A stretch of 33,863 nt of DNA. It comes from Xanthomonas arboricola. GTDB taxonomy: Bacteria > Pseudomonadota > Gammaproteobacteria > Xanthomonadales > Xanthomonadaceae. This document shows, piece after piece, positions 3,900-33,863 of the stretch; the stretch's first letter is position 1; every line of letters starts with the position of its first letter. The notes below the pieces were generated by a model that was given only the letters and a program-made list of their open reading frames with translations, ran no database searches and was not told the DNA's origin. Position numbers and translations under genes: made by a program. The stretch covers positions 219,222 through 253,084 of the forward strand of contig NZ_QREM01000007.1 in assembly GCF_003353015.1 (NCBI RefSeq), read 5' to 3'.

Positions 3900-3916
3900 T
3901 GTCGCAATCTGCGACA
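3900..3916. promoter_or_regulatory. Perfect palindrome, probable activator binding site
   Basis: TGTCGCAATCTGCGACA is a perfect 7-3-7 inverted repeat. It lies just upstream of the regulator start and about 170-185 bp upstream of the predicted start of the aldehyde dehydrogenase transcript, the usual distance for a sigma54 enhancer. Looser half-sites, TGTCCCG at 3931 and its inverted partner ending at 3959, lie beside it. The inference is binding by the AcoR-type regulator, possibly with autoregulation. Confidence 0.6.
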
Positions 3917-4057
3917 GTCCAGAAGATCACTGTCCCGATAAACACCATGTTTGCGGACACAGCGCAAGCGCCGCGCGTGATGCGCCGCAGCGAAGACCTC
4001 GACGATCGGCCGCACCTGCGGCGCGATCGGGCGTGACGCAATGCAGCAGGAAAAACC

Positions 4058-4073
4058 TGGCATCACCCTTGCG
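4058..4073 (+). promoter_or_regulatory. Sigma54 (-24/-12) promoter
   Basis: TGGCATCACCCTTGCG matches the consensus TGGCACG-N4-TTGCW with GG and GC separated by exactly 10 bases. Transcription would begin near 4084, about 44 nt before the aldehyde dehydrogenase ATG. A sigma54 activator gene lies divergently upstream, which supports the call. Confidence 0.8.
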
Positions 4074-4127
4074 TGACAGCGGAGACGCCCGTTAAGGGCT
4101 TCTTCCCATGTACCGCAGGAGACACCG

Positions 4128-5657
<1,530 letters not shown>

Positions 5658-24678: not shown

Positions 24679-24693
24679 CCCGACGAGGTGCGT

Positions 24694-27600
24694 GTGCTGA
24701 AGGTTTGGATGGGTTTGTTGTGTCTGATCGCGCTGCCGGCAAGTGCGGCCACCCCCACGGCCCCGGAGTTGCTGTTCCGGGTCTCGGCCGACCGCGACCT
24801 GCAGGCCGATGTCGCCCGCGGCGACGGCGTGCCCAACTTCCGCGACAAGATCACGCTGGTGCCCACCGGCAAGCGCGGCAACGCCATCGAATGGGCCGAC
24901 GACGGCGTGCTGTCGTGGAATGCACCCGGCAACCTCTACACCCAGCGCGGCACGCTGGGCTTCTTCTGGCGCGCACGCTATCCGGTGGGTGAAGCGCCGT
25001 TCGTGATTTTCCGGGTCGGCTATGCCGACCACACCAGCTGGGACATGGCCTGGCTGCGCATCGACTGGAACGGCCACGGCTTCGATGCTTTCGTCACCGA
25101 CGCCAACCTCGCGCGCACCCGCGTCTCGTTCAAGCTCGACAAGAACCCCACTGCCAACGCGTGGACCCACATTGCGTTTGCCTGGGACGAAACCCGCGGC
25201 GTGCGCCTGTATGTCGACGGCAAGGAAGCCGCCCGCGTGGACTGCGGCGCCCCCTGCGCCGACGGCGGCGCGCTCGACTTCGACGCCGCGCTCGACTTCG
25301 ACGCCGCGCTCGACCAGTTCGGCCTGGCCGGCCGCGTGATGTCGCCGCACCAGGTGCAGAGCCGCTACAACTTCCTGCGTGGCAGCGACTTCGACGAACT
25401 CCGTATCTACGACCGCATGCTCGACGCCAGCGGCGCCGCCGCGCTCGCCCGCCTGCAGGAGCCCACCACCGCGGAAGCACCCACCGGCGACGCGCAACAC
25501 GCCGCCTTCCTGCACCGCTTTGGCTGGGACAACGGCCACGCACCGCCGTTGCTGGACGCACCGGTCACCCGCATCCGCAAGGTGGAATTCACCGACGCGC
25601 GCGACCTCAAGCAATGGATGTGGAAGGCCACCGACGGCATCGCCGAGACCACCTGGCCCGGCGTCTACAACCGCTCGCGCCTGCCCGGGCGTAACGACTA
25701 CTTCCAGCTGCCGGACTGGAACACCTATGTCGAAGGCGGCAAGGCGCTGGATCTCACCCTGCCGGACGAGCCGGTCAACCGCATCGAGCTGCGCGGCGCC
25801 GCTTACGGCCAGGCCACTTACGCCGCGCCCAACGCACAGCCGCAGCCGCTGTTCGCGCGCAGCCAGGGCGTGGTGCGCAGCGTGGACCAGTTCCCCGAGC
25901 GCCGTGGCGGCACCCTGCGCTTTGCCAATACCGCGCAGGAAACCCCCATCCAGGAAATCTGGGCCTACAACGTGCAGCCGGGCGAGGTGCCCAAAGGCAG
26001 CGCGCAACTCAGCTACACCGTGCGAAGCGACATCCAGCCCGACTACGACAACCTCGCCCCGCTGCGCGATGTCATCGCCGGCCGCTACCCGCCGGGTGAG
26101 CGCCAGACCGTGATCGCGCTGCCCACCAAGGCGCCGGCGCGCAAGCGCCCCAGCGACAAGGCTGCAGCAAGCGCGCAGCAGCCCATCGTGCACATCCTGG
26201 TGCCGTCCAGCCTGGGTAACCCGCCGCCGGACCAGGCGCTGATGCGCAGCTGGTCCTACGGCTGGGAGAACATGCACGACGGCCTGGACGGCATCGCCAT
26301 CACCTTGCCGGCGCTCACCCTGCCGGCCACCCACAACGGCAGCATCCCGCTCAACATCCGCATCAAGGACCCCATCTGGCCCGCGCGCGACATGCTCGAT
26401 GTCTCGGTCGCCGTCGCTCCCGGCCAGGCCCGCACGCTGTGGCTGGACCTGCGCGACAGGATCCTCAGCAACGACAGCCTGATGCTCAGCATCGCCGCCG
26501 CCGCGCCCGGCTTTGATGCCAACGCGCTCGACGGCACCCAGCTGCAACTGGTGTTCAAGCCGCGCAATGAGGTCATCAAGGAGCACGTGGCCGACCGCTT
26601 CAACCAGGTCAAGGACAACTGGGGCTTTCTGGTGGAAGAGCACACCACCTCCAAGCGCCAGCTGCTCTACAAGCGCCTGGACGCCGACATCACCGACCTG
26701 CTGCGCGTAGACCCCGACCACGCGCTTGGGCGCGAATACTGGAACGACATCAGCTACGCCAACCAGGGCGCGTTGCCGGTCGAGATGCCCACCGTACCCA
26801 AGGGCGTGCCCGCCTGGGCGTTCTGGCAGCTGCAAGACCTCAGCGCCACCCGCCGCTACATCCGCTGGTGGATCGAGCAGCGCCAGGTGGCCTATGGCGA
26901 TTTCGGCGGCGGCATCTCGGATGATTCGGACCTGGTGCAGCAATGGCCCGGCGTCGCCCTGATGGGCGTGGACCCGGACATGCTCAACGCCTCCATGCTG
27001 GCGCTGTCCGATGCCAACTACCGCAACGGCATGTTCACCAACGGCCTGTCCACCATCGAAACCGACGAGCTGCATTCCTACGAGGAGGGCATCAACCTCA
27101 ACAGCGCCCTGCTGTACCTCAACTGGGGCGACCCGCGCACCGTCGAGCGCCTGATGGAAACCGTCAAGGCCTTCGACAGCGTCATCCAGGTCAACCCGCA
27201 AGGCCACCTGCTGTTTGCCAGCAACTGGTTCGGCGGCCGCACCGTCTACCGCGAGCCCAACTGGCAATGGCAAAAGCCGTATTCCTTCCCCATCGTGCAC
27301 CCGGCCATCCTGCTGGGCGGCTATAACGCCGACCCCAACAGCCGCCGCGTCGTCACCGGCCTGGCAGACGGCTATCTCGCCCACGCCTACACAAACGCCA
27401 AGGGCAACTGGGCGCTACCCAACGAGATCAACTGGCAAACCGGCAAAACCCGCGGCGGCGAACTGTTCGAAGGCAGCGGCGGCGCCGACACCTTGCACAC
27501 CTTCTGGGCCGCCTACCGCTTCACCGGCGAGCAGCGCTATCTCAAGCCGATTAACTACCGCGTCGCCAACAGCGGCCCCAACGGCCTGTCCCTGCTCAAC

Positions 27601-28536
27601 GAAAACTTCCTCGACGTCATGGGCAAGCGCAACGACTGGAGCGGCAAGCTCATCGATGCAGCCAACAAGGACGACGGCAGCGCCCCGGACTTCCCGCACC
27701 ACGTGGCCTGGGAGCAGACCGGCAACCTCAAGTATCTCGCCGCCATTTACCGCAGCGAGGCAAGAGAGAAGCTGCAGAACTTCTACATGAACACCCAAGG
27801 CCACTGGTGGAGCGACCGCGTGGAATCGCCCACAGTCAACCTGCAACGCGCACGCCTGGGCGGCGTGGCCCTCAAGCGCAATCAAACCTACCCCGGCCAC
27901 ACCGTGAGCTGGCGCTTCACCGATCCAGAGGCCGCCACCCAAGTGGCCATCGCCATCCCCGCACCCCGGCAAGACCGCTTCACCGTCATCGCCTACAACA
28001 CCTCCAACAAAAACCAGCGCGCCAGCATGACCGGCTGGAACGTCGCCCCGGGCCAATGGCGCATCACCCAAGGCGTAAGCAAAGCCAATGACGGCAAGCT
28101 CGACAGCAACGCCAAGACGCAAGAGGTCGCTTTCGAAAAAAGCGCGTCCATCGACATCGACTTCCCCGCAGGCCGCACCACCGTCCTGCAGCTCGAACGC
28201 ATCGCAGCCACCACCCCGGTCGAACTACGCCCGGACCTGGGCATCGGCCACAGCGATGTGCGCGTGACTGCCGATGCCATCGAGGTCACCGTGCACAGCC
28301 TCGGCCATGCCGATGCGCCGGCCGGGTTTGTGGTGTTGGAGGATGTGCGTGGGAAGGAGCTGGCCACAGTGGCGTTTCCGGCACTCGCGGCACCACGCGA
28401 TCTGACGCCTAGGACGGCGGTTGTGCGGTTGGCGGTGCCGTCTGCCAGTACTGGCAAGGACGCGCGTTTGCGTCTGGTAACGGAAGGCGAGGTTGCTGAG
28501 GTGACTCAGCGCAATAACACGCTAGCTGTACCGTGA
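24694..28536 (+). CDS. Large exported LamG-domain protein of the pectin locus, unknown activity
   Basis: The product is about 1280 residues. A signal peptide (KVWMGLLCLIALPASAA) precedes a LamG/concanavalin-like lectin domain (about 25-245, with GTLGFFWRARYP, WTHIAFAWDETRGVRLYVDGKE and DFDELRIYDRML). The middle and later parts are rich in Trp and aromatic patches (HSYEEGINLNSALLYLNWGD, NWFGGRTVYREPNWQWQKPY) suggesting an alpha/alpha-barrel catalytic fold. The C-terminal 200 residues look beta-rich. No catalytic family is recognised with confidence. GTG 24694 has GAGG with 5-nt spacing; GTG 24688 and ATG 24709 are alternatives. Its place after esterase and lyase suggests a carbohydrate-active enzyme for a pectin side structure. 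A perfect 18-bp tandem duplication inside repeats ALDFDA. Confidence 0.8.
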   Translation: MLKVWMGLLCLIALPASAATPTAPELLFRVSADRDLQADVARGDGVPNFRDKITLVPTGKRGNAIEWADDGVLSWNAPGNLYTQRGTLGFFWRARYPVGEAPFVIFRVGYADHTSWDMAWLRIDWNGHGFDAFVTDANLARTRVSFKLDKNPTANAWTHIAFAWDETRGVRLYVDGKEAARVDCGAPCADGGALDFDAALDFDAALDQFGLAGRVMSPHQVQSRYNFLRGSDFDELRIYDRMLDASGAAALARLQEPTTAEAPTGDAQHAAFLHRFGWDNGHAPPLLDAPVTRIRKVEFTDARDLKQWMWKATDGIAETTWPGVYNRSRLPGRNDYFQLPDWNTYVEGGKALDLTLPDEPVNRIELRGAAYGQATYAAPNAQPQPLFARSQGVVRSVDQFPERRGGTLRFANTAQETPIQEIWAYNVQPGEVPKGSAQLSYTVRSDIQPDYDNLAPLRDVIAGRYPPGERQTVIALPTKAPARKRPSDKAAASAQQPIVHILVPSSLGNPPPDQALMRSWSYGWENMHDGLDGIAITLPALTLPATHNGSIPLNIRIKDPIWPARDMLDVSVAVAPGQARTLWLDLRDRILSNDSLMLSIAAAAPGFDANALDGTQLQLVFKPRNEVIKEHVADRFNQVKDNWGFLVEEHTTSKRQLLYKRLDADITDLLRVDPDHALGREYWNDISYANQGALPVEMPTVPKGVPAWAFWQLQDLSATRRYIRWWIEQRQVAYGDFGGGISDDSDLVQQWPGVALMGVDPDMLNASMLALSDANYRNGMFTNGLSTIETDELHSYEEGINLNSALLYLNWGDPRTVERLMETVKAFDSVIQVNPQGHLLFASNWFGGRTVYREPNWQWQKPYSFPIVHPAILLGGYNADPNSRRVVTGLADGYLAHAYTNAKGNWALPNEINWQTGKTRGGELFEGSGGADTLHTFWAAYRFTGEQRYLKPINYRVANSGPNGLSLLNENFLDVMGKRNDWSGKLIDAANKDDGSAPDFPHHVAWEQTGNLKYLAAIYRSEAREKLQNFYMNTQGHWWSDRVESPTVNLQRARLGGVALKRNQTYPGHTVSWRFTDPEAATQVAIAIPAPRQDRFTVIAYNTSNKNQRASMTGWNVAPGQWRITQGVSKANDGKLDSNAKTQEVAFEKSASIDIDFPAGRTTVLQLERIAATTPVELRPDLGIGHSDVRVTADAIEVTVHSLGHADAPAGFVVLEDVRGKELATVAFPALAAPRDLTPRTAVVRLAVPSASTGKDARLRLVTEGEVAEVTQRNNTLAVP
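25270..25305 (+). repeat. Perfect 18-bp tandem duplication in the LamG gene
   Basis: Two identical 18-bp units (25270-25287, 25288-25305), with half a third copy following, encode ALDFDA twice then ALD. The duplication is in frame and sits at a loop of the LamG domain. Confidence 0.9.
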
Positions 28537-28883
28537 AAGCAGGAAACGAGCTCGAGTGGCGGGCTTCATAGATCCCGGCATTAGGCCGCAAGAAACTCGG
28601 CGTAAAAGAATGAGTCCGCAAAGACGCGGCCTAACACCAGGCATTAGAGGCAGGAACACGGCTGAAAAGAGATGAGCTTCAAATGCTTGTGGTGATTGAC
28701 CGCGGTTAGGGAGTCGGCGAGGATCATGGAACTCCGCGCTTAAAGCGCTCCAGTATAAGTTAGACCGCGCACTGTACATCACGGACACTAGTAGCATAGT
28801 CAAACGCCGTTAGCGGAAGGCCCGACCCGGGCGGCAGCAAACAGCCTTCAAAATTTCTGTAGCACTACTTCAAGGAGAGCAAC
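28537..28883. other. Degenerate left boundary of the integron cassette array
   Basis: No gene is seen. Integron-type core fragments are scattered here: ATTAGGC at 28580, GCCTAAC at 28629, GTTAGAC at 28759-28765 (preceded by CGCGCTTAAAGCGCTCC, resembling the right half of an attC), and CAAACGCCGTTAGCG at about 28803-28815. TTAGGCCGC (28581-28589) and GCGGCCTAA (28626-28634) are a perfect inverted pair. The simplest reading is decayed attC or attI sequence at the edge of the array. No integrase gene or remnant is seen. Confidence 0.5.
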
Positions 28884-29144
28884 ATGGAACGTGAAGAAAG
28901 CTTTCGTCTGACCCTGCAGAGCATGACTGCTGACGAGTGTCTAGCATTCCTTAAGGCTTGTGGTCATAGCCTTTACAACTGTAAGTGGCATATGCGCCAC
29001 GAATTTGACGAGGCAAATACGCATTTAGTTGAGTGCAACCTCCCCGATGGCAACCTCGCCGGAGCCCGAGAGGCAATACGCGAGGCCTCCGCCCGCATCG
29101 GTGTCGATTCCTCGCGCTGGCAGCTGTTGCCTGCAAGGCTTTAG
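28884..29144 (+). CDS. Integron cassette protein 1, unknown
   Basis: The product is 86 residues, soluble and acidic/mixed (MEREESFRLTLQSMTADECL and a helical C-terminal half AREAIREASARIGV). It has three cysteines (DECL, KACG, NCKW) plus VECN. AAGGAGAG lies about 5 nt upstream of ATG 28884, so it has its own ribosome site. The stop is 7 nt before attC site 1. No known domain is recognised; it is one of the single-gene cassettes of the array. Confidence 0.65.
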   Translation: MEREESFRLTLQSMTADECLAFLKACGHSLYNCKWHMRHEFDEANTHLVECNLPDGNLAGAREAIREASARIGVDSSRWQLLPARL

Positions 29145-29151
29145 GGCACCC

Positions 29152-29208
29152 GCCTAACAACAATTCGTCCAAGCCGACTCCGCGGCGCGGCTTAACTCAA
29201 TGTTAGCC
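29152..29208 (+). other. attC site 1
   Basis: A 57-bp site runs from inverse core GCCTAAC to core GTTAGCC. CAAGCCG...GCGCGGCTT pairs internally and the central loop is GC-rich. The orientation places the recombination point G^TTAGCC on the right. Confidence 0.88.
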
Positions 29209-29224
29209 AAACAACGGAGAGATA

Positions 29225-29467
29225 ATGGCACCCCAAATTCTGGAACAAGTTGCATCAGGCTTCGTCGCTACATACATAGACGCGCCCAATGCACCCGACC
29301 GCACAGGCGCCGTCGCTGCTCTTGCGGATATCCTTCACTCTGCTTACGGCAGCGGTCTTGTGTCGGGAGCTGACTGCATCCGTGACAAGTTGCTACGAGA
29401 AACCGAGCGTAGTGGGTCACTCGACTCGCAGAAGCTATTGGCACTCACGTCCACGCTGTTTGGCTAA
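29225..29467 (+). CDS. Integron cassette protein 2, unknown
   Basis: The product is 80 residues: MAPQILEQVASGFVATYID, then APDRTGAVAALADILHSAYG and a helical end RDKLLRETERSGSLDSQKLL. It is mostly alpha-helical by composition, with no signal or membrane segment. ACGGAGAG precedes ATG 29225. Its TAA stop lies inside the left core of attC site 2, so the site defines the end of the protein. No family is recognised. Confidence 0.65.
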   Translation: MAPQILEQVASGFVATYIDAPNAPDRTGAVAALADILHSAYGSGLVSGADCIRDKLLRETERSGSLDSQKLLALTSTLFG

Positions 29468-29521
29468 CAATTCATTCAAGCAGAAACCGCTTTGCGGCTC
29501 GACTTACTTCAGGTGTTAGCT
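29462..29521 (+). other. attC site 2
   Basis: A 60-bp site runs from GGCTAAC to GTTAGCT with inner arms TCAAGCAG and CTCGACTTA and loop CCGCTTTGCGG. The left core contains the stop of cassette gene 2; the next gene starts 4 nt after the right core. Confidence 0.86.
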
Positions 29522-29525
29522 TGCA

Positions 29526-30170
29526 ATGACAGATTGGCAGACCATCACTCTTGCGGTAACTGGTAACGCTTTAGCGCTTGCCGTTCTAGGCTGGCTAGCA
29601 AAATCACTTATTGGTAGTTTCCTATCGAAAGACCTTGAGCGGCATCGGGCGGAGCTAACCGCCGCAAATCAAACGGCAACTGAGCGGCTTCGCCATGAGC
29701 TCAGTCTCGTTGCTCAAGAACGCAACATCGTATTCTCAAGTCTCCACCAAAGGCGCGCAGATGCGATCGCGGGCATCTACGAGCGTATTGTTGAGACGTC
29801 ACGCCGGGGGGCGAGCTATGCTTCACCCATCGAGTACGGCGGTGAGCCGACCAAGCAAGATAAATACTCGGACTTCGTCGTTTCATACAATGATCTGGTC
29901 GGATACTTTGGAAAGACTAAAATCTACGTTCCAAAGGCAACATGCGCCAAGATCGATGAGCTTGTCGATCAGATAAAAGGCGCTGCGATAGAGATGAATG
30001 TCTACATGTCTCGCCCGGACGAGCATTTGGGTCGAGAGGGCCGGATTGCGAAAATGGAGGTGTGGTTGAAGTCTTGGAAGTGTTTCAAAGATCAAGTCCC
30101 GGTAGCTAAGGAAGCTCTAGAAAGCGATCTGCGCTCCCTGCTTGGCGACAGCGAATCGGTTGCAAGCTAA
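29526..30170 (+). CDS. Integron cassette protein 3, membrane-anchored coiled-coil protein
   Basis: The product is 214 residues. A single N-terminal transmembrane helix (ITLAVTGNALALAVLGWL plus AKSLIGSFL) is followed by a basic/acidic coiled-coil-like region (DLERHRAELTAANQTATERL) and a helical cytoplasmic domain (HQRRADAIAGIYERIVETSR and later KIDELVDQIKGAAIEMN). Proteins with this layout are common as hypothetical genes in mobile DNA; function is unknown. ATG 29526 is only 10 nt from the attC recombination point and has no ribosome site within the cassette. Translation must rely on a very short leader or on upstream sequence, and therefore on which cassette precedes it. The stop lies in attC site 3. 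Confidence 0.7.
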   Translation: MTDWQTITLAVTGNALALAVLGWLAKSLIGSFLSKDLERHRAELTAANQTATERLRHELSLVAQERNIVFSSLHQRRADAIAGIYERIVETSRRGASYASPIEYGGEPTKQDKYSDFVVSYNDLVGYFGKTKIYVPKATCAKIDELVDQIKGAAIEMNVYMSRPDEHLGREGRIAKMEVWLKSWKCFKDQVPVAKEALESDLRSLLGDSESVAS

Positions 30171-30236
30171 CAATTCATTCAGACGAACCTTAGAGTCGAA
30201 TCGGCTACTGGGAATGCATTTGGTCTAGGGTTAGTT
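30165..30236 (+). other. attC site 3 (72 bp, divergent)
   Basis: The site runs from AGCTAAC to GTTAGTT. It is longer than its neighbours and the middle (TCGAATCGGCTACTGGG) differs from the shared CCGCTTCGCGG loop. Weak internal pairing remains (AGAC near the left, GGTCT near the right). Confidence 0.65.
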
Positions 30237-30418
30237 ACCCTCCTGCAAACCTTAAATTGGATCCAACTGAAACCAATTGACTGGTCCAGCACCTTGAATA
30301 CCGCGTTTGCAAAAAAAACTGTTCAGACCGAAGTAAGTCACTTTGAGAACGCAGACGCCTAACTCTTCCATCGAGAGGATGTGTCCAGGCAACCGGGCCG
30401 CGCCTCTCATGTGAGACA
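30231..30418 (+). other. Cassette 4, without a standard start codon
   Basis: This 188-bp cassette has no ATG- or GTG-initiated gene of useful length. A frame stays open from the boundary at 30231 to a TAA at 30360-30362 (LVTLLQTLNWIQLKPIDWSS and onward). It is the same frame as the preceding cassette gene and is interrupted only by that gene's stop. TTG 30294 is the only weak start. It may be a decayed gene, a tail for stop read-through, or a noncoding or regulatory cassette. Confidence 0.45.
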
Positions 30419-30424
30419 TTAGGC
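30357..30424 (+). other. attC site 4 with mutated right core
   Basis: A 68-bp site begins with GCCTAAC, and GAGAGG pairs with CCTCTC internally. The right core reads ATTAGGC instead of GTTAGGC; the lost G is the base beside the cleavage point. Folding is preserved, but recombination at this side should be impaired. Confidence 0.7.
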
Positions 30425-30469
30425 CCAACCTAAGACCGCTTTATTCCCAATTCAAAACGAGAGCATCAT

Positions 30470-30715
30470 ATGGCTAAGTACACGATCAGCTACGTTTATA
30501 TAAGAAAAAATTCAAGTGGAAACGAGAGCAGAACGGCGAGCAATTACACTGTGGAAGCAGGAAGTGAGGCGACAGCCATAAGAATGGTTGAGGATAGGCA
30601 CTCGGGCTGCAAAATTGAAATTCGATCCATCAGAGAGAAGAAACAAATACTTATTGTCTACTTGAGCTGCTTACGACTTGAGCATCCGCAAGTGAAGGTC
30701 GCCTGTAGGGCATAA
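30470..30715 (+). CDS. Integron cassette protein 5, unknown
   Basis: The product is 81 residues: MAKYTISYVYIRKNSSGNES, then ASNYTVEAGSEATAIRMVED and RHSGCKIEIRSIREKKQ. It has the look of a small alpha/beta protein with an EAxSExxAI helix seen in cassette-type hypotheticals. The last ~20 residues (IVYLSCLRLEHPQVKVACRA) differ in character and may be a frameshifted extension into attC. A weak purine-rich AACGAGAG precedes ATG 30470. Function unknown. Confidence 0.6.
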   Translation: MAKYTISYVYIRKNSSGNESRTASNYTVEAGSEATAIRMVEDRHSGCKIEIRSIREKKQILIVYLSCLRLEHPQVKVACRA

Positions 30716-30769
30716 CGATTCATTCAAGCCGAGTCCGCTTCGCGGGTCGGCTTGACTCCAGCGTTAGGC
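30710..30769 (+). other. attC site 5
   Basis: A 60-bp site runs from GCATAAC to GTTAGGC, with arms TCAAGCCGA and TCGGCTTGA and loop GTCCGCTTCGCGGG. It is the best-formed site of the array apart from site 6. Confidence 0.9.
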
Positions 30770-30795
30770 GTCATACCAACCAACAAGGGGAGTCA

Positions 30796-31110
30796 ATGGC
30801 AATTTCTAAGCAAGAGCTCGAGGCAATGAATGATCTTCTTGGCAAGGGCAAGAAGGTGACGGACTTGGCGAAGAAGTACCCCCAGTACGACTACTGGGAA
30901 ATATATTGGGCGGTCAATGACTACAGCTTCCTTGGCAAGAAGCGAACGATCACCAATCGCCTAAAGCGTCTGGTCAAAGAAAAGACGACGGAGCAACGCG
31001 AGAAAACCGCAGAGGAGGCGCAAGATCTGCTTAATGAGCTGTATCGGCAGCTCAAACGCAATAGCGAGATGCTCATTGAGATTGACCGCGTTCTGAGAGG
31101 AGGCAAGTGA
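30796..31110 (+). CDS. Integron cassette protein 6, HTH-like plus coiled coil
   Basis: The product is 104 residues. Residues 8-45 (MNDLLGKGKKVTDLAKKYPQ, then YDYWEIYWAVNDYSFLGKKR) resemble a helix-turn-helix of the kind that reads a short motif. A Lys/Glu-rich region from about 50 to the end (EKTTEQREKTAEEAQDLLNE) should form a coiled coil. This suggests a small DNA-binding or multimerising protein, with no family assigned. AGGGGAG lies about 5 nt upstream of ATG 30796. The stop is 1 nt before attC site 6. Confidence 0.7.
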   Translation: MAISKQELEAMNDLLGKGKKVTDLAKKYPQYDYWEIYWAVNDYSFLGKKRTITNRLKRLVKEKTTEQREKTAEEAQDLLNELYRQLKRNSEMLIEIDRVLRGGK

Positions 31111-31111
31111 C

Positions 31112-31171
31112 GCCAAACAATTCGTTCAAGCCGAAGCTGCTTCGCGGCTCGGCTTAACTCAGGCGTTAGGC
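31112..31171 (+). other. attC site 6
   Basis: A 60-bp site runs from GCCAAAC to GTTAGGC with arms TCAAGCCGA and TCGGCTTAA and a GCTGCTTCGCGGC loop. Fully formed. Confidence 0.9.
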
Positions 31172-31172
31172 A

Positions 31173-31286
31173 ATGACCGAGCGTATCCACGACGGCCCAA
31201 TTGACGGGCGCGCGATCCTAGTCTGGGCATATGACGACGATCTTTTGGTTGACGCCCAAGATGAGGACTTACCTGCTCTACGCTAG
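31173..31286 (+). CDS. Integron cassette 7, 37-residue acidic peptide
   Basis: The ATG at 31173 lies 2 nt after the core of attC site 6. It encodes MTERIHDGPIDGRAILVWAY followed by DDDLLVDAQDEDLPALR, a very acidic peptide. No ribosome site is possible inside the cassette, so expression would be leaderless or coupled. The peptide reads like real protein but may be the N-terminal part of a longer ancestral cassette gene. Function unknown. Confidence 0.45.
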   Translation: MTERIHDGPIDGRAILVWAYDDDLLVDAQDEDLPALR

Positions 31287-31334
31287 AATGGATAAATCGC
31301 TTCGCTTGGGAGCTGACTAATTCAGGCGCTAGAC
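31287..31334 (+). other. Decayed attC site 7
   Basis: Only the right half is recognisable: CGCTTCGCTTGGGAGCTGAC followed by TAATTCAGGCGCTAGAC. The core is GCTAGAC rather than GTTAGAC, and no left inverse core is found. It probably cannot recombine normally, fixing cassettes 7 and 8 together. Confidence 0.6.
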
Positions 31335-31350
31335 CTCACAGGAGACTTTC

Positions 31351-32280
31351 GTGGCAACGGATCAGGGTAAAGCCAGTGACGAACCATCTGACTGCACCGT
31401 GCACACGCATCCGGTACCAGCTGGTGAGCTGAGCCGATACAGCGTCGAAGGCGGTGCGCATGCCGAACAGGACATTCGCAATTACGTACAGGGCCAAGCA
31501 CGGGACGAGGTCGTACAGCACGTAGAGCGCGTTAAGCGCGAGGCGGTGTTTGGCCAAATGTACTAGATCTGGGATGTGACTACAGATAAGGACAGGTGGT
31601 GGGTGCTCACGAACCTGACTAACCTTTATTCGCAGCGCCACTTCCCTAGCTTGGATTACACCCTCTCCTTCCGCATCGGCCTTATGGCCAGGCTCCGGGA
31701 CAGATCGGGAAGAGCAGACGCTGAAGACCCCTCGCCATTCGATGAGGTAATTCGCCGAATGGATCAGGCCGAGCGCCACCTAGGCCATGCTGTCGAAGCC
31801 GAAGATTATCAAGCAGTTGGCATGCAGCTTCGAGAAGCTCTTCTATCGCTTATAGCAGCAGTTCGCCGCAGAGTTAAGATCCCGGAGGATTCCGAAGTAC
31901 CACAAGCAGCAAATTTTATCGCGTGGTCTGATCTTCTCATGAACACCCTCTGCGGTGGAGGAAGCAATCGGGAGTTGCGGCAGTATCTGAAGACTTTAGC
32001 CAAAGAGACTTGGCAGTTGGCGAATTGGCTCACGCACCACCGCAACGCCACTGAAATAGCAGCATCAGTTGCTCTACATTCTTGTCAGACGATTGTCGGC
32101 CACTTTATCCAGCTGGTGCAGCGGATCAGCACAAATCAATTAGATCGCTGTCCCATATGCTCTTCTCGAAACATCCGGACACACTTTGATATTGAGATTC
32201 TGCCAGATGGTCATTACTTCTCTAGCTGTGGCAGCTGCGATTGGGATAGTCATCTTGGGCACGGCCCAGAAGAGACCTAA
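31351..32280 (+). pseudogene. Integron cassette protein 8, interrupted by an in-frame amber codon
   Basis: GTG 31351 (GGAG 6 nt upstream) opens a frame that stops at TAG 31564-31566 after AVFGQMY. The same frame continues without shift (IWDVTTDKDRWWVLTNLTNL) to TAA 32278-32280 in an attC core. Together they encode about 309 residues. The second part has helical segments (QLREALLSLIAAVRRR, WLTHHRNATEIAASVALHS) and a C-terminal zinc-ribbon pair CPIC/CGSC. The likely history is a single gene with a nonsense mutation. Alternatives are amber suppression, or re-initiation at GTG 31576 giving a 234-residue protein. No family function is recognised. Confidence 0.65.
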
Positions 32281-32320
32281 CAATTCGTCCAAGCCGACGT
32301 CGCTTCGCGGCTTGGCTTAA
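32275..32320 (+). other. Truncated attC site 8 (array right end)
   Basis: The left core ACCTAAC, the arm TCCAAGCCGA and most of the returning arm (CGGCTTGGCTTAA) are present. The right core is absent: at about 32320 the sequence switches to unrelated AT-rich DNA. This marks a deletion or insertion breakpoint at the end of the array. Confidence 0.75.
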
Positions 32321-32603
32321 ATAAGCGAAAAACGTGGTCGAAAGAACGGGGCGGATTCACTTAAGAAGTAAGCCCGAATTTTTTCCTTCACTCATCTGTA
32401 GGCATAGAGCTTATTGAATGTATCTGGCATAGCTACGGATATCGAGTATTGGAGCCATTCCGCGTTCCTGCAACCTCGTCATGAGTTCAAGTAGAAATCG
32501 TGTTGCTGTGCGTGGTGGAGAGCCAGGTGAGTTTCAGATAAGGATAACCTGAATGCGCTTCTATAAAGCAATTAAATTTGTGAAATTGCGATAATTTATT
32601 GAT
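32321..32603. other. AT-rich stretch without a clear gene
   Basis: Base composition drops sharply after the broken attC. A short minus-strand frame ending near 32418 reads ATRFLLELMTRLQERGMAPI then LDIRSYARYIQ and looks protein-like, but it has no start and may be a remnant. Near 32557-32600 there are A/T-rich partial repeats (AATTAAATTT, AATTTATTGATTTAA). No other feature is seen. Confidence 0.35.
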
Positions 32604-33155
32604 TTAAGCAATAACAGATGCGCCGTAAATTCCGCCAAAACCGTTCTTGCGGATTTGCATCGATTCTTCAAAGTTAGACTCAAAGGGCTCGGTACCTTTT
32701 ACAATTTCGAACCAATCTGTCGCACTATTAACCATGTCGTGAGCAAATTTCTGAACATCAATATGCAAATAACTATTTAAGATGTGATTATGAAAAGACC
32801 CGTCGGTCACTCCAGGTTTGAAGAATATCACTCCGTTGAAATTTAGATTTTTGTGGTTCAACCTGCCTTGATGGAGTGCAGCGCACCTTAGGCTGTAACA
32901 GTTCTTTCCGTCAAGCGTGGGGCGGCCATTTGCTTGATATTTAAAAGCCATCCATTTTTTAAACCACTCCATATATTTCTTGCCAGTCGCGTGGCCATCG
33001 TCGCTTTCGAGGGCCCCGCAAATGTCAGGCACCGTTAGAGTGGTCATCAGTGAAACGAGATACAAGTCACTCTCTTCAGAGAGTAGGGCCACCTGATTAA
33101 TGAAATTAAAGAATGGGTGGTAATCGGCGAGATTTAATAGGTCTGTGCTAGTCAT
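32604..33155 (-). CDS. HEPN-like protein in AT-rich island, unknown
   Basis: The product is 183 residues. The segment NCYSLRCAALHQGRLNHKNL contains R-x4-H (RCAALH), the spacing of HEPN ribonuclease motifs, inside a block (YSLRCAxLHQGR) that I recognise from widespread uncharacterised proteins. A later VIFFKPG, HNHILNSYLHIDVQKFAHDM and a terminal NGFGGIYGASVIA also fit that group. Codons are strikingly A/T-rich compared with all neighbours, pointing to recent transfer. Orientation is opposite to the cassettes. ATG 33155 gives MTSTDLLNLADYHPF; there is no strong ribosome site. A role in defence or toxin action is inference only. Confidence 0.65.
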   Translation of the reverse strand: MTSTDLLNLADYHPFFNFINQVALLSEESDLYLVSLMTTLTVPDICGALESDDGHATGKKYMEWFKKWMAFKYQANGRPTLDGKNCYSLRCAALHQGRLNHKNLNFNGVIFFKPGVTDGSFHNHILNSYLHIDVQKFAHDMVNSATDWFEIVKGTEPFESNFEESMQIRKNGFGGIYGASVIA

Positions 33156-33197
33156 GGGCGGTTAGCTTTATAGTCCGCTCTGAGTCTGCATAGATTA

Positions 33198-33241
33198 ACC
33201 CGCATTGTAATGTCAGGAATATCCTTACATGACAAACGGGT
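33198..33241. repeat. Interrupted inverted repeat upstream of the HEPN-like gene
   Basis: ACCCG (33198-33202) and TGTCA (33211-33215) pair with TGACA (33230-33234) and CGGGT (33237-33241). The element lies 45 bp upstream of the minus-strand gene and close to the point where GC content rises again. It could be an operator or a mobile-element end. Confidence 0.35.
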
Positions 33242-33352
33242 CAGGTTCACTTCTTTAAGAAAATCGGCTAGATAGGGGCTCAGGGATATCTTCCGCGCGT
33301 GTCGGCAGGGAGGCGCTCTCGATTCTTATCAGCGCTTTGCCACCCAAAGCAG

Positions 33353-33358
33353 TTGACA
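33353..33358 (+). promoter_or_regulatory. Possible -35 element of the leader RNA
   Basis: TTGACA is a perfect -35 hexamer. The sequence 17 bp further (CAATCT, 33376-33381) is only a poor -10. If used, transcription would begin just before the antisense target at 33391. Confidence 0.3.
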
Positions 33359-33390
33359 TCCCAACAAACCCGCAGCAATCTCTACCTCAA

Positions 33391-33414
33391 GGAGCGTAGA
33401 AACTCCTCTAAGAG
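33391..33414 (+). ncRNA. Leader segment complementary to the C4-like RNA
   Basis: GGAG-CG-TAGAAAC (33391-33403) and CTAAGAG (33408-33414) are complementary, in the right antiparallel order, to CTCC/GTTTCTA and CTCTTAG of the structured RNA at 33491-33565. In total 18 base pairs form with two small interruptions. Such a target just before a terminator is how phage C4 and P4 CI RNAs recognise their leader. Confidence 0.6.
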
Positions 33415-33418
33415 CGGT

Positions 33419-33448
33419 ACCCACCTCCGTCAAACCGGTGGGTTTTTT
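33419..33448 (+). terminator. Rho-independent terminator in phage-like leader
   Basis: ACCCACC (33419-33425) pairs with GGTGGGT (33437-33443) around an 11-nt loop and runs into six T residues. It lies 5 nt after the antisense target and before the C4-like RNA, so it is placed to truncate a leader transcript. Confidence 0.85.
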
Positions 33449-33490
33449 GTGCCTGTAGATTCTTGCGGGCGCAACCGACGCGATGCCTGC

Positions 33491-33565
33491 GTCGGGAGGG
33501 CGGCTAATACAAGACCCTTCGGGGAAATACGCCCGCCGACTCTTAGCGGTTTCTAACCTCCCGAC
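33491..33565 (+). ncRNA. C4 / P4-CI-like structured antisense RNA
   Basis: GTCGGGAGG (33491-33499) pairs perfectly with CCTCCCGAC (33557-33565), closing a compact fold. Inside are GCGG/CCGC (33500-33503, 33533-33536) and CCC-TTCG-GGG (33515-33524). An unpaired CTCTTAGCGGTTTCTAA (33540-33556) carries the bases complementary to the leader. An alternative hairpin CCGACGC/GCGTCGG competes with the outer stem. This outline fits the C4 antisense RNA family of phages P1/P7 and the immunity RNA of satellite P4, which shut off downstream phage genes by pairing to their leader. The overlapping open frame at 33299-33556 is probably only read-through of this RNA. Confidence 0.6.
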
Positions 33566-33615
33566 ATCCCGTCGCCACCCGGCGGCGGGGCCTGCTCGTC
33601 AAGGAGGGCTTTGCC

Positions 33616-33780
33616 ATGCGTCGATCCACGTCCCGTCCCAAGCCAGCGCGCAAGCGCGCCACGGTGCCGCCGCCCACCGAGGTCGTCTGGCGCTCGCTCG
33701 ACCCAACGATCACGCCGCGGCCCTACCTCGACCGCCCCGCCATCCCCGAGCCCCGCCCCGATCCTGTCGACTCCCCTTAA
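33616..33780 (+). CDS. Small basic Pro/Arg-rich protein, possibly truncated
   Basis: The product is 54 residues (MRRSTSRPKPARKRATVPPP, then TEVVWRSLDPTITPRPYLDR). It is basic and proline-rich, likely disordered and nucleic-acid binding. AAGGAGG lies 8 nt before ATG 33616, an excellent ribosome site. It follows the C4-like RNA and so would be the gene controlled by it. The last residues (DSP) and the TAA are read from CGACTCCCCTTAA, which may already be the tip of the adjacent insertion sequence, so the native protein may have been longer. No function recognised. Confidence 0.6.
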   Translation: MRRSTSRPKPARKRATVPPPTEVVWRSLDPTITPRPYLDRPAIPEPRPDPVDSP

Positions 33781-33781
33781 T

Positions 33782-33863
33782 TCAATGCCAGCCAAAACTA
33801 GAGGTCTGCGGTTGATGTTGATCACGGAACTCGGCGGGTGTTAGCCCGCCCAGGCTGTCGTGC
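33782..33863 (-). CDS. IS3-family transposase, C-terminal end (runs off window)
   Basis: On the minus strand the last 26 codons read HDSLGGLTPAEFRDQHQPQT then SSFGWH and TGA. The HDSLGGLTPAEF block is the characteristic C terminus of the IS3-family integrase-type transposase (OrfB). The 5' part lies outside the window. The end of the element is likely within 20 bp after the stop, near TGTCGACTCCCC at 33765-33776. Confidence 0.75.
   Translation of the reverse strand, partial: HDSLGGLTPAEFRDQHQPQTSSFGWH

Follow-up and report, generated by a model that had tools for sequence, protein, structure and literature searches.

The small RNA sRNA-Xcc1 as a leader-linked antisense RNA that probably switches neighbouring toxin and phage genes in Xanthomonas and its relatives

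Immunity in satellite P4 is conferred by a leader-encoded antisense RNA, the CI RNA. Rfam holds a family for SymR, and sRNA-Xcc1 itself is reportedly, going by the title of Chen 2011, an integron-encoded trans-acting small RNA. The best-matching described system is the C4 RNA of phages P1 and P7 (RF01695, with c4-a1b1, RF03163), whose locus shares with sRNA-Xcc1 loci the order promoter, target, terminator-like hairpin and antisense RNA. The P1 record runs from the a1 and b1 target sites through C4 RNA and the a2 and b2 target sites to icd and ant; in its sequence GTTAGTG is followed by the overlapping GCGG-ACAA-CCGC...GCGGTATTTTT and then by C4, which carries CACTAAC in its second hairpin, and GTTAGTG occurs again shortly before icd. 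With the Rfam models, P1 gave 68.8 bits for C4 (our positive control) and 51 bits for c4-a1b1. In the literature as available to us, c4-a1b1 is named in a table row of the main text of PMC2864571, and C4 is covered in the review text PMC12197685.

Two further systems are close in part. IsrK of Gifsy-1, in the portion of PMC4825925 at hand, resembles our locus as a short leader ended by a terminator, with read-through into an antirepressor-like gene; it differs in being a trans activator. SymE-SymR of E. coli places the same toxin family under an antisense RNA (partial text of PMC1891008), but SymR is encoded in cis to symE, whereas in our locus the RNA precedes the gene and is read from the gene's own strand, a layout also noted for the cassettes (excerpt of PMC12444791).

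As for sRNA-Xcc1, the accessible text of PMC2996969 gives a Northern signal of about 100 nt and mapped ends of 88 nt in Xcc 8004. One Xylella strain has seven copies, five of them clustered, and in another strain C4 and isrK are annotated near a copy (PMC12189769, in part). Copies are also recorded in Aeromonas and Haemophilus (passages of PMC8780938 and PMC11932112), and symE with sRNA-Xcc1 is described as the most widespread Xanthomonas cassette, for which 'a divergent regulatory mechanism' was suggested (PMC12444791, in part). In the portions of this literature at hand the RNA is discussed as a regulator of virulence or one carried by vesicles, and the targets given for it are all predictions. 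In the main-text passages that we consulted on sRNA-Xcc1, C4, isrK and SymE antisense control, we found nothing tying sRNA-Xcc1 to a C4-type leader switch.

The window, by which we mean the whole 33,863-nt stretch of Xanthomonas arboricola DNA analysed here, has one Rfam match at gathering threshold, and it is sRNA-Xcc1: positions 33491-33573 on the plus strand match RF02221 over its full length (positions 1-87 of 87) at 74.1 bits, above the cut-off of 53, on the same strand as the downstream ORF. The window element thus belongs to the same sequence and structure family as the published RNA; that RNA is presented as trans-acting, whereas we read it here as a leader-linked antisense switch. The elements of the locus are:

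33353..33381, plus strand: promoter-like element by direct reading (TTGACA 33353-33358, 17-nt spacer, weak -10 hexamer CAATCT 33376-33381)
33391..33406, plus strand: target hairpin with GGAG/CTCC stem; its loop holds 33397-33402, complementary to the sRNA junction 33550-33555
33408..33414, plus strand: variable target heptamer, complementary to the sRNA loop 33540-33546
33420..33448, plus strand: intrinsic-terminator-like hairpin and T-run (TTTTTT), immediately 3' of the target
33475..33495, plus strand: conserved 7-bp hairpin overlapping the 5' arm of the sRNA closing stem
33491..33573, plus strand: antisense RNA sRNA-Xcc1 (RF02221 match; closing stem 33491-33499/33557-33565)
33540..33546, plus strand: specificity loop of hairpin 3, from its pairing and from loop variation among relatives
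33550..33555, plus strand: second antisense block (junction), from covariation in the alignment
33616..33780, plus strand: 54-codon ORF with Shine-Dalgarno-like AAGGAGG, an N-terminal remnant of a SymE-like gene by tblastn
33765..33863, strand unassigned: multi-copy IS3-type end that cuts the symE-like ORF

The order is therefore TTGACA, target block (33391-33414), terminator-like hairpin, sRNA and, 42 nt behind the sRNA, the ORF. A consensus promoter scan of 33280-33800 returned no promoter, the TTGACA element included; the same scan, which thus missed TTGACA, gave no separate promoter for the sRNA between the terminator and 33491. Among the 126 unique loci whose target could be recognised, 78 have TTGAC 35-40 nt 5' of the target hairpin, compared with 2 in a control stretch.

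The original prediction was of a C4/P4-like antisense RNA with a perfect 9-bp closing stem, sharing one short leader with its own target and terminator. The stem is present (33491-33499 with 33557-33565), and the three parts do lie in one leader, ordered as in phage P1 C4. One of the two outcomes named in advance as counting against the prediction did occur: the C4 model (cut-off 45) gave no match at E<=10 on 32200-33863, where RF02221 matched instead, and we rejected Rfam C4 membership for the element on this result. Nor did the model match the sRNA-Xcc1 elements of 20 chosen relatives at E<=0.1; a separate c4-2 match at one locus (L097) lay below its cut-off. RF02221 stands without a clan in Rfam, whereas C4 is in CL00128. 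The likeness of P1 C4 to sRNA-Xcc1 loci extends to a closed stem with two hairpins, a loop complementary to the target, a second target near the gene start and an antirepressor gene; the window differs from C4 in that no Shine-Dalgarno target was found and a truncated symE-like ORF takes the place of the antirepressor. Because the order of parts is the same but the C4 model finds no match, we describe sRNA-Xcc1 as working like C4 and do not claim it as a member of the C4 family.

In the window copy, the sRNA and its leader pair in three blocks: 33540-33546 with 33408-33414 (7 pairs), 33548-33555 with 33397-33404 (8, one of them G-T) and 33558-33561 with 33391-33394 (4). The complementary strand that had been proposed is thus present, but with 19 pairs instead of the 18 claimed, or 22 once the hairpin arm 33536-33538 is released to pair with 33415-33417, as happens in the computed duplex. 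The duplex energy of -27.7 kcal/mol was reached by none of 1000 dinucleotide-shuffled leaders (mean -13.2, sd 2.9). The 83-nt RNA itself folds with a z of -2.14 (5 of 200 shuffles equally good), and the minimum free energy fold of the isolated sRNA, unlike the Rfam consensus, buries most of the loop (unpaired probability 0.11-0.23 at 33541-33546).

RF02221 matched at E<=0.001 in 43 of 149 genomes of the organism's own family (43/43 above the cut-off), 26 of 369 genomes of the class (12 above) and 58 of 398 genomes of the phylum (40 above), sets that overlap in part, and in none of 14 control genomes; genomes of the own family carry up to ten copies. Into our locus table went 190 of the matches listed, chosen mainly for their high scores; 188 of them had enough leader, and these yielded 165 distinct antisense segments. 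At 132 of the 165 unique loci the leader contains a perfect complement of at least 7 nt to the hairpin-3 loop of its own sRNA, compared with 2377 of 26996 swapped pairs; the other 33 have no 7-nt loop complement in their own leader. There are 45 kinds of loop in 97 loci, and the targets change along with the loops.

Covariation among homologous loci, which the original prediction had made a test of its case, was clearly present in an alignment of 110 of the 112 own-family loci (two were left out for N), which had not been chosen for pairing. The 13 core target-antisense pairs, 7 from the loop and 6 from the junction, were paired in 94.0% of 1403 cells across these 110 leader-plus-sRNA sequences. 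Double changes filled 316 cells, compared with 82 in shuffled and 24-46 in slid versions (relatedness inflates such counts, and the slid versions retain the same relatedness), and the covariation score was 0.582 against 0.160 for shuffles. All seven pairs of the loop heptamer showed double changes, with 97.3% of cells paired, as did five of the six junction pairs, with 90.3%. The fold of the sRNA itself was paired in 87.5% of cells and varied little: double changes occupied 22 cells versus 12 in shuffles, the covariation score equalled that of shuffles (0.049 versus 0.048; 139/500), and sliding the fold by +1 gave more double-change cells (44 versus 22), in a test that had one helix-2 pair set in poor register. 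The pairing between leader and sRNA is the best-supported pairing of the whole module, since the sRNA's own fold varies so little and scores no higher than shuffles.

A different measure, the duplex energy of the 38-nt segment against whole leaders, was abandoned as a test: matched medians (-39.0) lay below swapped ones (-29.7), but the own leader ranked first in just 19 of 165 cases, the signal being swamped by conserved and GC-rich parts. It was replaced by the loop-complement test and by pair counts on the fixed alignment. The hairpin at 33475-33495 was paired in 92.3% of cells among relatives, with 17 double-change cells versus 4.2 in shuffles (0/500); just three of its pairs carried double changes, a number reached by 61 of 500 shuffles. 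It could be a processing site, a competitor or an alternative fold.

On these grounds we read the window module as a C4-type antisense switch, with a probability of about 0.78; the best reading of this copy is a single-target, terminator-linked variant. What the copy now controls is another matter. With the intact SymE protein of a related locus (L152; 123 residues) as query, tblastn aligned residues 1-50 to the window ORF at 80% identity, the alignment stopping at 33765, and the SymE domain of that protein (62-112) had no match better than E 0.28 in 13 kb around the window ORF (L054). The 54-codon ORF has no Pfam match, and none of the genome's SymE matches lies within the window. The stretch that cuts the ORF, 33765-33863, recurs at seven further places in the genome at 95-100% identity over all or most of its length, and matching plasmid places are annotated as IS3 family transposase. 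Beyond the window, past the IS3-type end, a 524-aa ORF (L054:6153-7727) has by eye the look of a YD/RHS-repeat fragment. Because its symE-like gene is truncated, the window copy is probably an orphan.

It could then also be a decayed remnant that is inactive in this genome, and the truncated gene, the weak -10 hexamer and the loop buried in the minimum free energy fold all fit that account. We nonetheless think it doubtful, although of the alternatives it survives best: all 13 core target-antisense pairs are intact in the window copy, and its target heptamer recurs in two more leaders of this genome (C20:376784 and C12:203191); a backward-pattern control produced one such match by chance. This genome holds four scored sRNA-Xcc1 copies, along with additional leaders whose sequence is broken by single Ns; in the own-genome copies L056, L057, L058 and L059 the single Ns fall inside the module, apparently where repeats broke the assembly. 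The two leaders that share the heptamer pair with the window sRNA at 12 of 13 core positions; so does C12:1153608, which has another heptamer, if G-T is counted, and the two remaining leaders reach 10 and 11. Because other leaders pair at 12 of 13 positions, one of them with a different heptamer, copies that share its target may still respond to the orphan RNA, and the pairing code may be a loose one. The differences between loops probably sort the copies into immunity groups. Avoidance of the same loop between copies of one genome was not seen: 8 of 136 pairs share a loop, against a shuffled mean of 4.4 (153/2000).

The terminator had been described as a strong one directly behind the target. 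A hairpin with TTTTTT does lie there (33420-33448), almost every row of the alignment has the target directly adjoining the terminator, and the stem is kept in the 110 relatives, where 95.7% of cells are paired and four of six pairs show double changes (7 to 17 of the 110 rows have gaps); yet the fold of the window hairpin, taken by itself, lies within the ordinary range of shuffles (z -0.95). In the nascent window leader an alternative fold (-10.4 kcal/mol) competes, and the terminator wins at equilibrium (0.91); occupying the target raises its probability to 0.99. The effect is far larger in loci L025-L029, where the terminator goes from a probability of 0.01-0.17 to one of 0.73-0.97. Across 103 loci the mean goes from 0.76 to 0.89 and the number of loci below 0.5 drops from 24 to 11; a second calculation on 105 loci gave 0.80 and 0.87, with a rise above 0.2 in 14 and a fall in one. 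The position of the target and the first calculation favour the idea that target pairing promotes termination; the second calculation and the small change in the window weigh against a general switch of this kind in equilibrium folding. A simple 1-2-3 attenuator common to all members was rejected, as only some loci fold in this way at equilibrium.

A terminated leader could itself be the main product: a short RNA of about 60 nt would, like IsrK, free the long transcript in trans, and the sRNA segment would be a cis inhibitory fold. The precedent is IsrK of Gifsy-1, whose short terminated form activates the read-through mRNA in trans (PMC4825925, in part), and the P1 leader scores 35.1 bits to the isrK model, below its cut-off of 50; the same model had no match at E<=10 on 32200-33863. 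We regard this account as unlikely, because sRNA-Xcc1 has been published as a separate RNA of about 100 nt (mapped ends 88 nt) in Xcc 8004 (available text of PMC2996969), so that in that strain the segment does occur as an RNA of its own. By analogy, the short terminated leader may be a decoy, which is compatible with an sRNA switch.

A C4-type switch may also act at the ribosome site. Start codons were called at 161 of the 165 loci by a simple score, so single cases may be off. We separated 81 short-type loci, defined as own-family loci whose sRNA starts with GTCGGGA or GCCGGGA and including the window, from 80 others, made up of own-family loci of other types and all loci from the class and phylum searches (a few of which, such as L091 and L100, look short-type). 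Among the 80, a loop complement of at least 7 nt lies within 30 nt 5' of the start codon in 35, often touching the Shine-Dalgarno sequence, compared with 115 of 6316 swapped pairs; none of 2000 permutations reached 35, the highest giving 7. At the short-type loci such second targets occur at chance (2 of 81 versus 135 of 6430 swapped), and for the window gene a second target at the Shine-Dalgarno sequence was discarded, the copy having no downstream match of at least 7 nt. Phages Smp131 and VPBES and an E. coli IS copy have the loop complement both in the leader and near the start codon, and the Sulfuricystis plasmid copy has no Shine-Dalgarno match (5 nt). In the Rac-SA53 phage and an E. coli O121 prophage copy our script chose another best leader match, and the loop match was seen by eye.

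From 185 ORFs called downstream of the module we scanned 110 proteins, 107 of them thinned by eye and three phage ORFs. Pfam assigned 31 to SymE, 5 to Bro-N, 3 each to pRha and KilA-N, 2 to HTH_38 and one each to P22_AR_N, AntA, Rap1a and MazE; antirepressor-type matches number 13 (Bro-N 5, pRha 3, KilA-N 3, P22_AR_N 1, AntA 1), a count in which a protein may appear twice. NCBIfam gave SymE 29, XAC0095 18 and pRha 3, PHROGs returned antirepressor names with up to six members each, and the remaining proteins of the 110 had no Pfam or NCBIfam match. Seen from the gene side, 12 of 13 genomes of the genus held 65 SymE matches, and 33 places were examined with their locus. Of the 30 SymE domains with at least 400 nt upstream, 28 are preceded, at a distance of up to 1 kb, by the sRNA in the same orientation; the exceptions are L257 and L239, and four matches lay on the opposite strand. 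An antisense RNA opposite symE, as in SymE-SymR, was not found in the window, whose one Rfam match at gathering threshold (RF02221) is on the strand of the ORF.

XAC0095-family genes follow the module at L021, L022 and many own-family loci; the accessible part of PMC2653504 lists XAC0095 among mutants altered in virulence and gives its expression as confined to growth in planta. In two phage records the module precedes an AntA-type or KilA-N gene. In Smp131 the ORF annotated as an anti-repressor (L009:4950-5522), which has no Pfam match, spans leader and sRNA, and its start may be misplaced. Viral contigs contained no exact short-type leader, and six had the sRNA core pattern (these were looked at for the element only). 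On plasmids, the Sulfuricystis module (L012:4001-4059) sits among VapC-, PemK/MazF- and antitoxin-type genes, and on a Xanthomonas plasmid (L014, ~3900-4200) leader and sRNA loop are, by eye, both broken at CTAG beside IS5-like copies. The sRNA-Xcc1 module is also present on an ISL3-type insertion sequence, together with a KilA-N/P22_AR_C gene and the transposase (L219:6001-8318 in E. coli GMM060; L013:4001-6318 on a Klebsiella plasmid); one E. coli genome has 13 matching places, and the one examined sits inside bcsE. This element would be a phage-type immunity switch on a transposon.

These distributions bear on the view of sRNA-Xcc1 as a trans-acting virulence regulator of many chromosomal mRNAs, whose match to the leader would be incidental. 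That view can draw on HrpG/HrpX control and on published target predictions (PMC12189769 and PMC2996969, both in part). We hold it to be quite improbable: no part of the RNA varies more than the loop, and the loop changes with the leader of its own locus and, at loci not of the short type, with the Shine-Dalgarno sequence there as well. Copies of the RNA also adjoin antirepressor or KilA-N genes in phages, Vibrio phages included, in E. coli and on Klebsiella plasmids. A trans role could nevertheless be added to a local one. Comparison among relatives indicates that sRNA-Xcc1 pairs with its own leader as the C4 RNA of phage P1 does, and for this reason it probably turns toxin and phage genes on and off locally and is not a free-roaming virulence regulator.

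That the RNA belongs to the immunity region of a P4-like cryptic satellite, as originally proposed, is very improbable: the likeness to P4 CI is one of logic, the ORF behind the RNA is symE-like and truncated, and an NCBIfam scan at E<=0.01 of the seven neighbouring window ORFs (24688-33155) found no family match and with it no support for a satellite. The setting next to an integron was not supported either. By eye, repeats resembling attC can be made out at ~31116 and ~32281, but nowhere in the genome did an integron integrase score above the cut-off. Seven matches fell below it, none in the window, and sub-cut-off matches also arose in 14 of 14 control genomes.

For the C4-type switch in the window we infer the following course. 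One promoter at ~33353-33381 would start an RNA whose first ~25 nt are the target, followed by terminator, sRNA and coding sequence. Read-through RNA would yield an sRNA-Xcc1 of ~83-88 nt, which would pair through its hairpin-3 loop and junction with the target in new transcripts. This terminator-linked pairing would most likely favour termination, so that the downstream gene would stay off once some sRNA exists. In many non-short relatives a second target at the Shine-Dalgarno sequence would add a translation block, as in phage P1 C4.

A wider reading, which we offer tentatively and at somewhat less than even odds, is that sRNA-Xcc1 is a portable C4-type immunity module that came from phage antirepressor operons and now governs SymE, XAC0095 and ISL3-type KilA-N/P22_AR genes, with a loop code for each copy; in the own family it would be a single-target transcription attenuator, and orphans would immunise against elements with the same target. 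If this is true, the family-wide covarying leader target would make a supposed virulence or vesicle regulator a testable local switch. It would also explain why sRNA-Xcc1 travels with symE in the cassette that the consulted part of PMC12444791 calls the most widespread in Xanthomonas, and it would link phage immunity RNAs to the control of toxins and of transposons.
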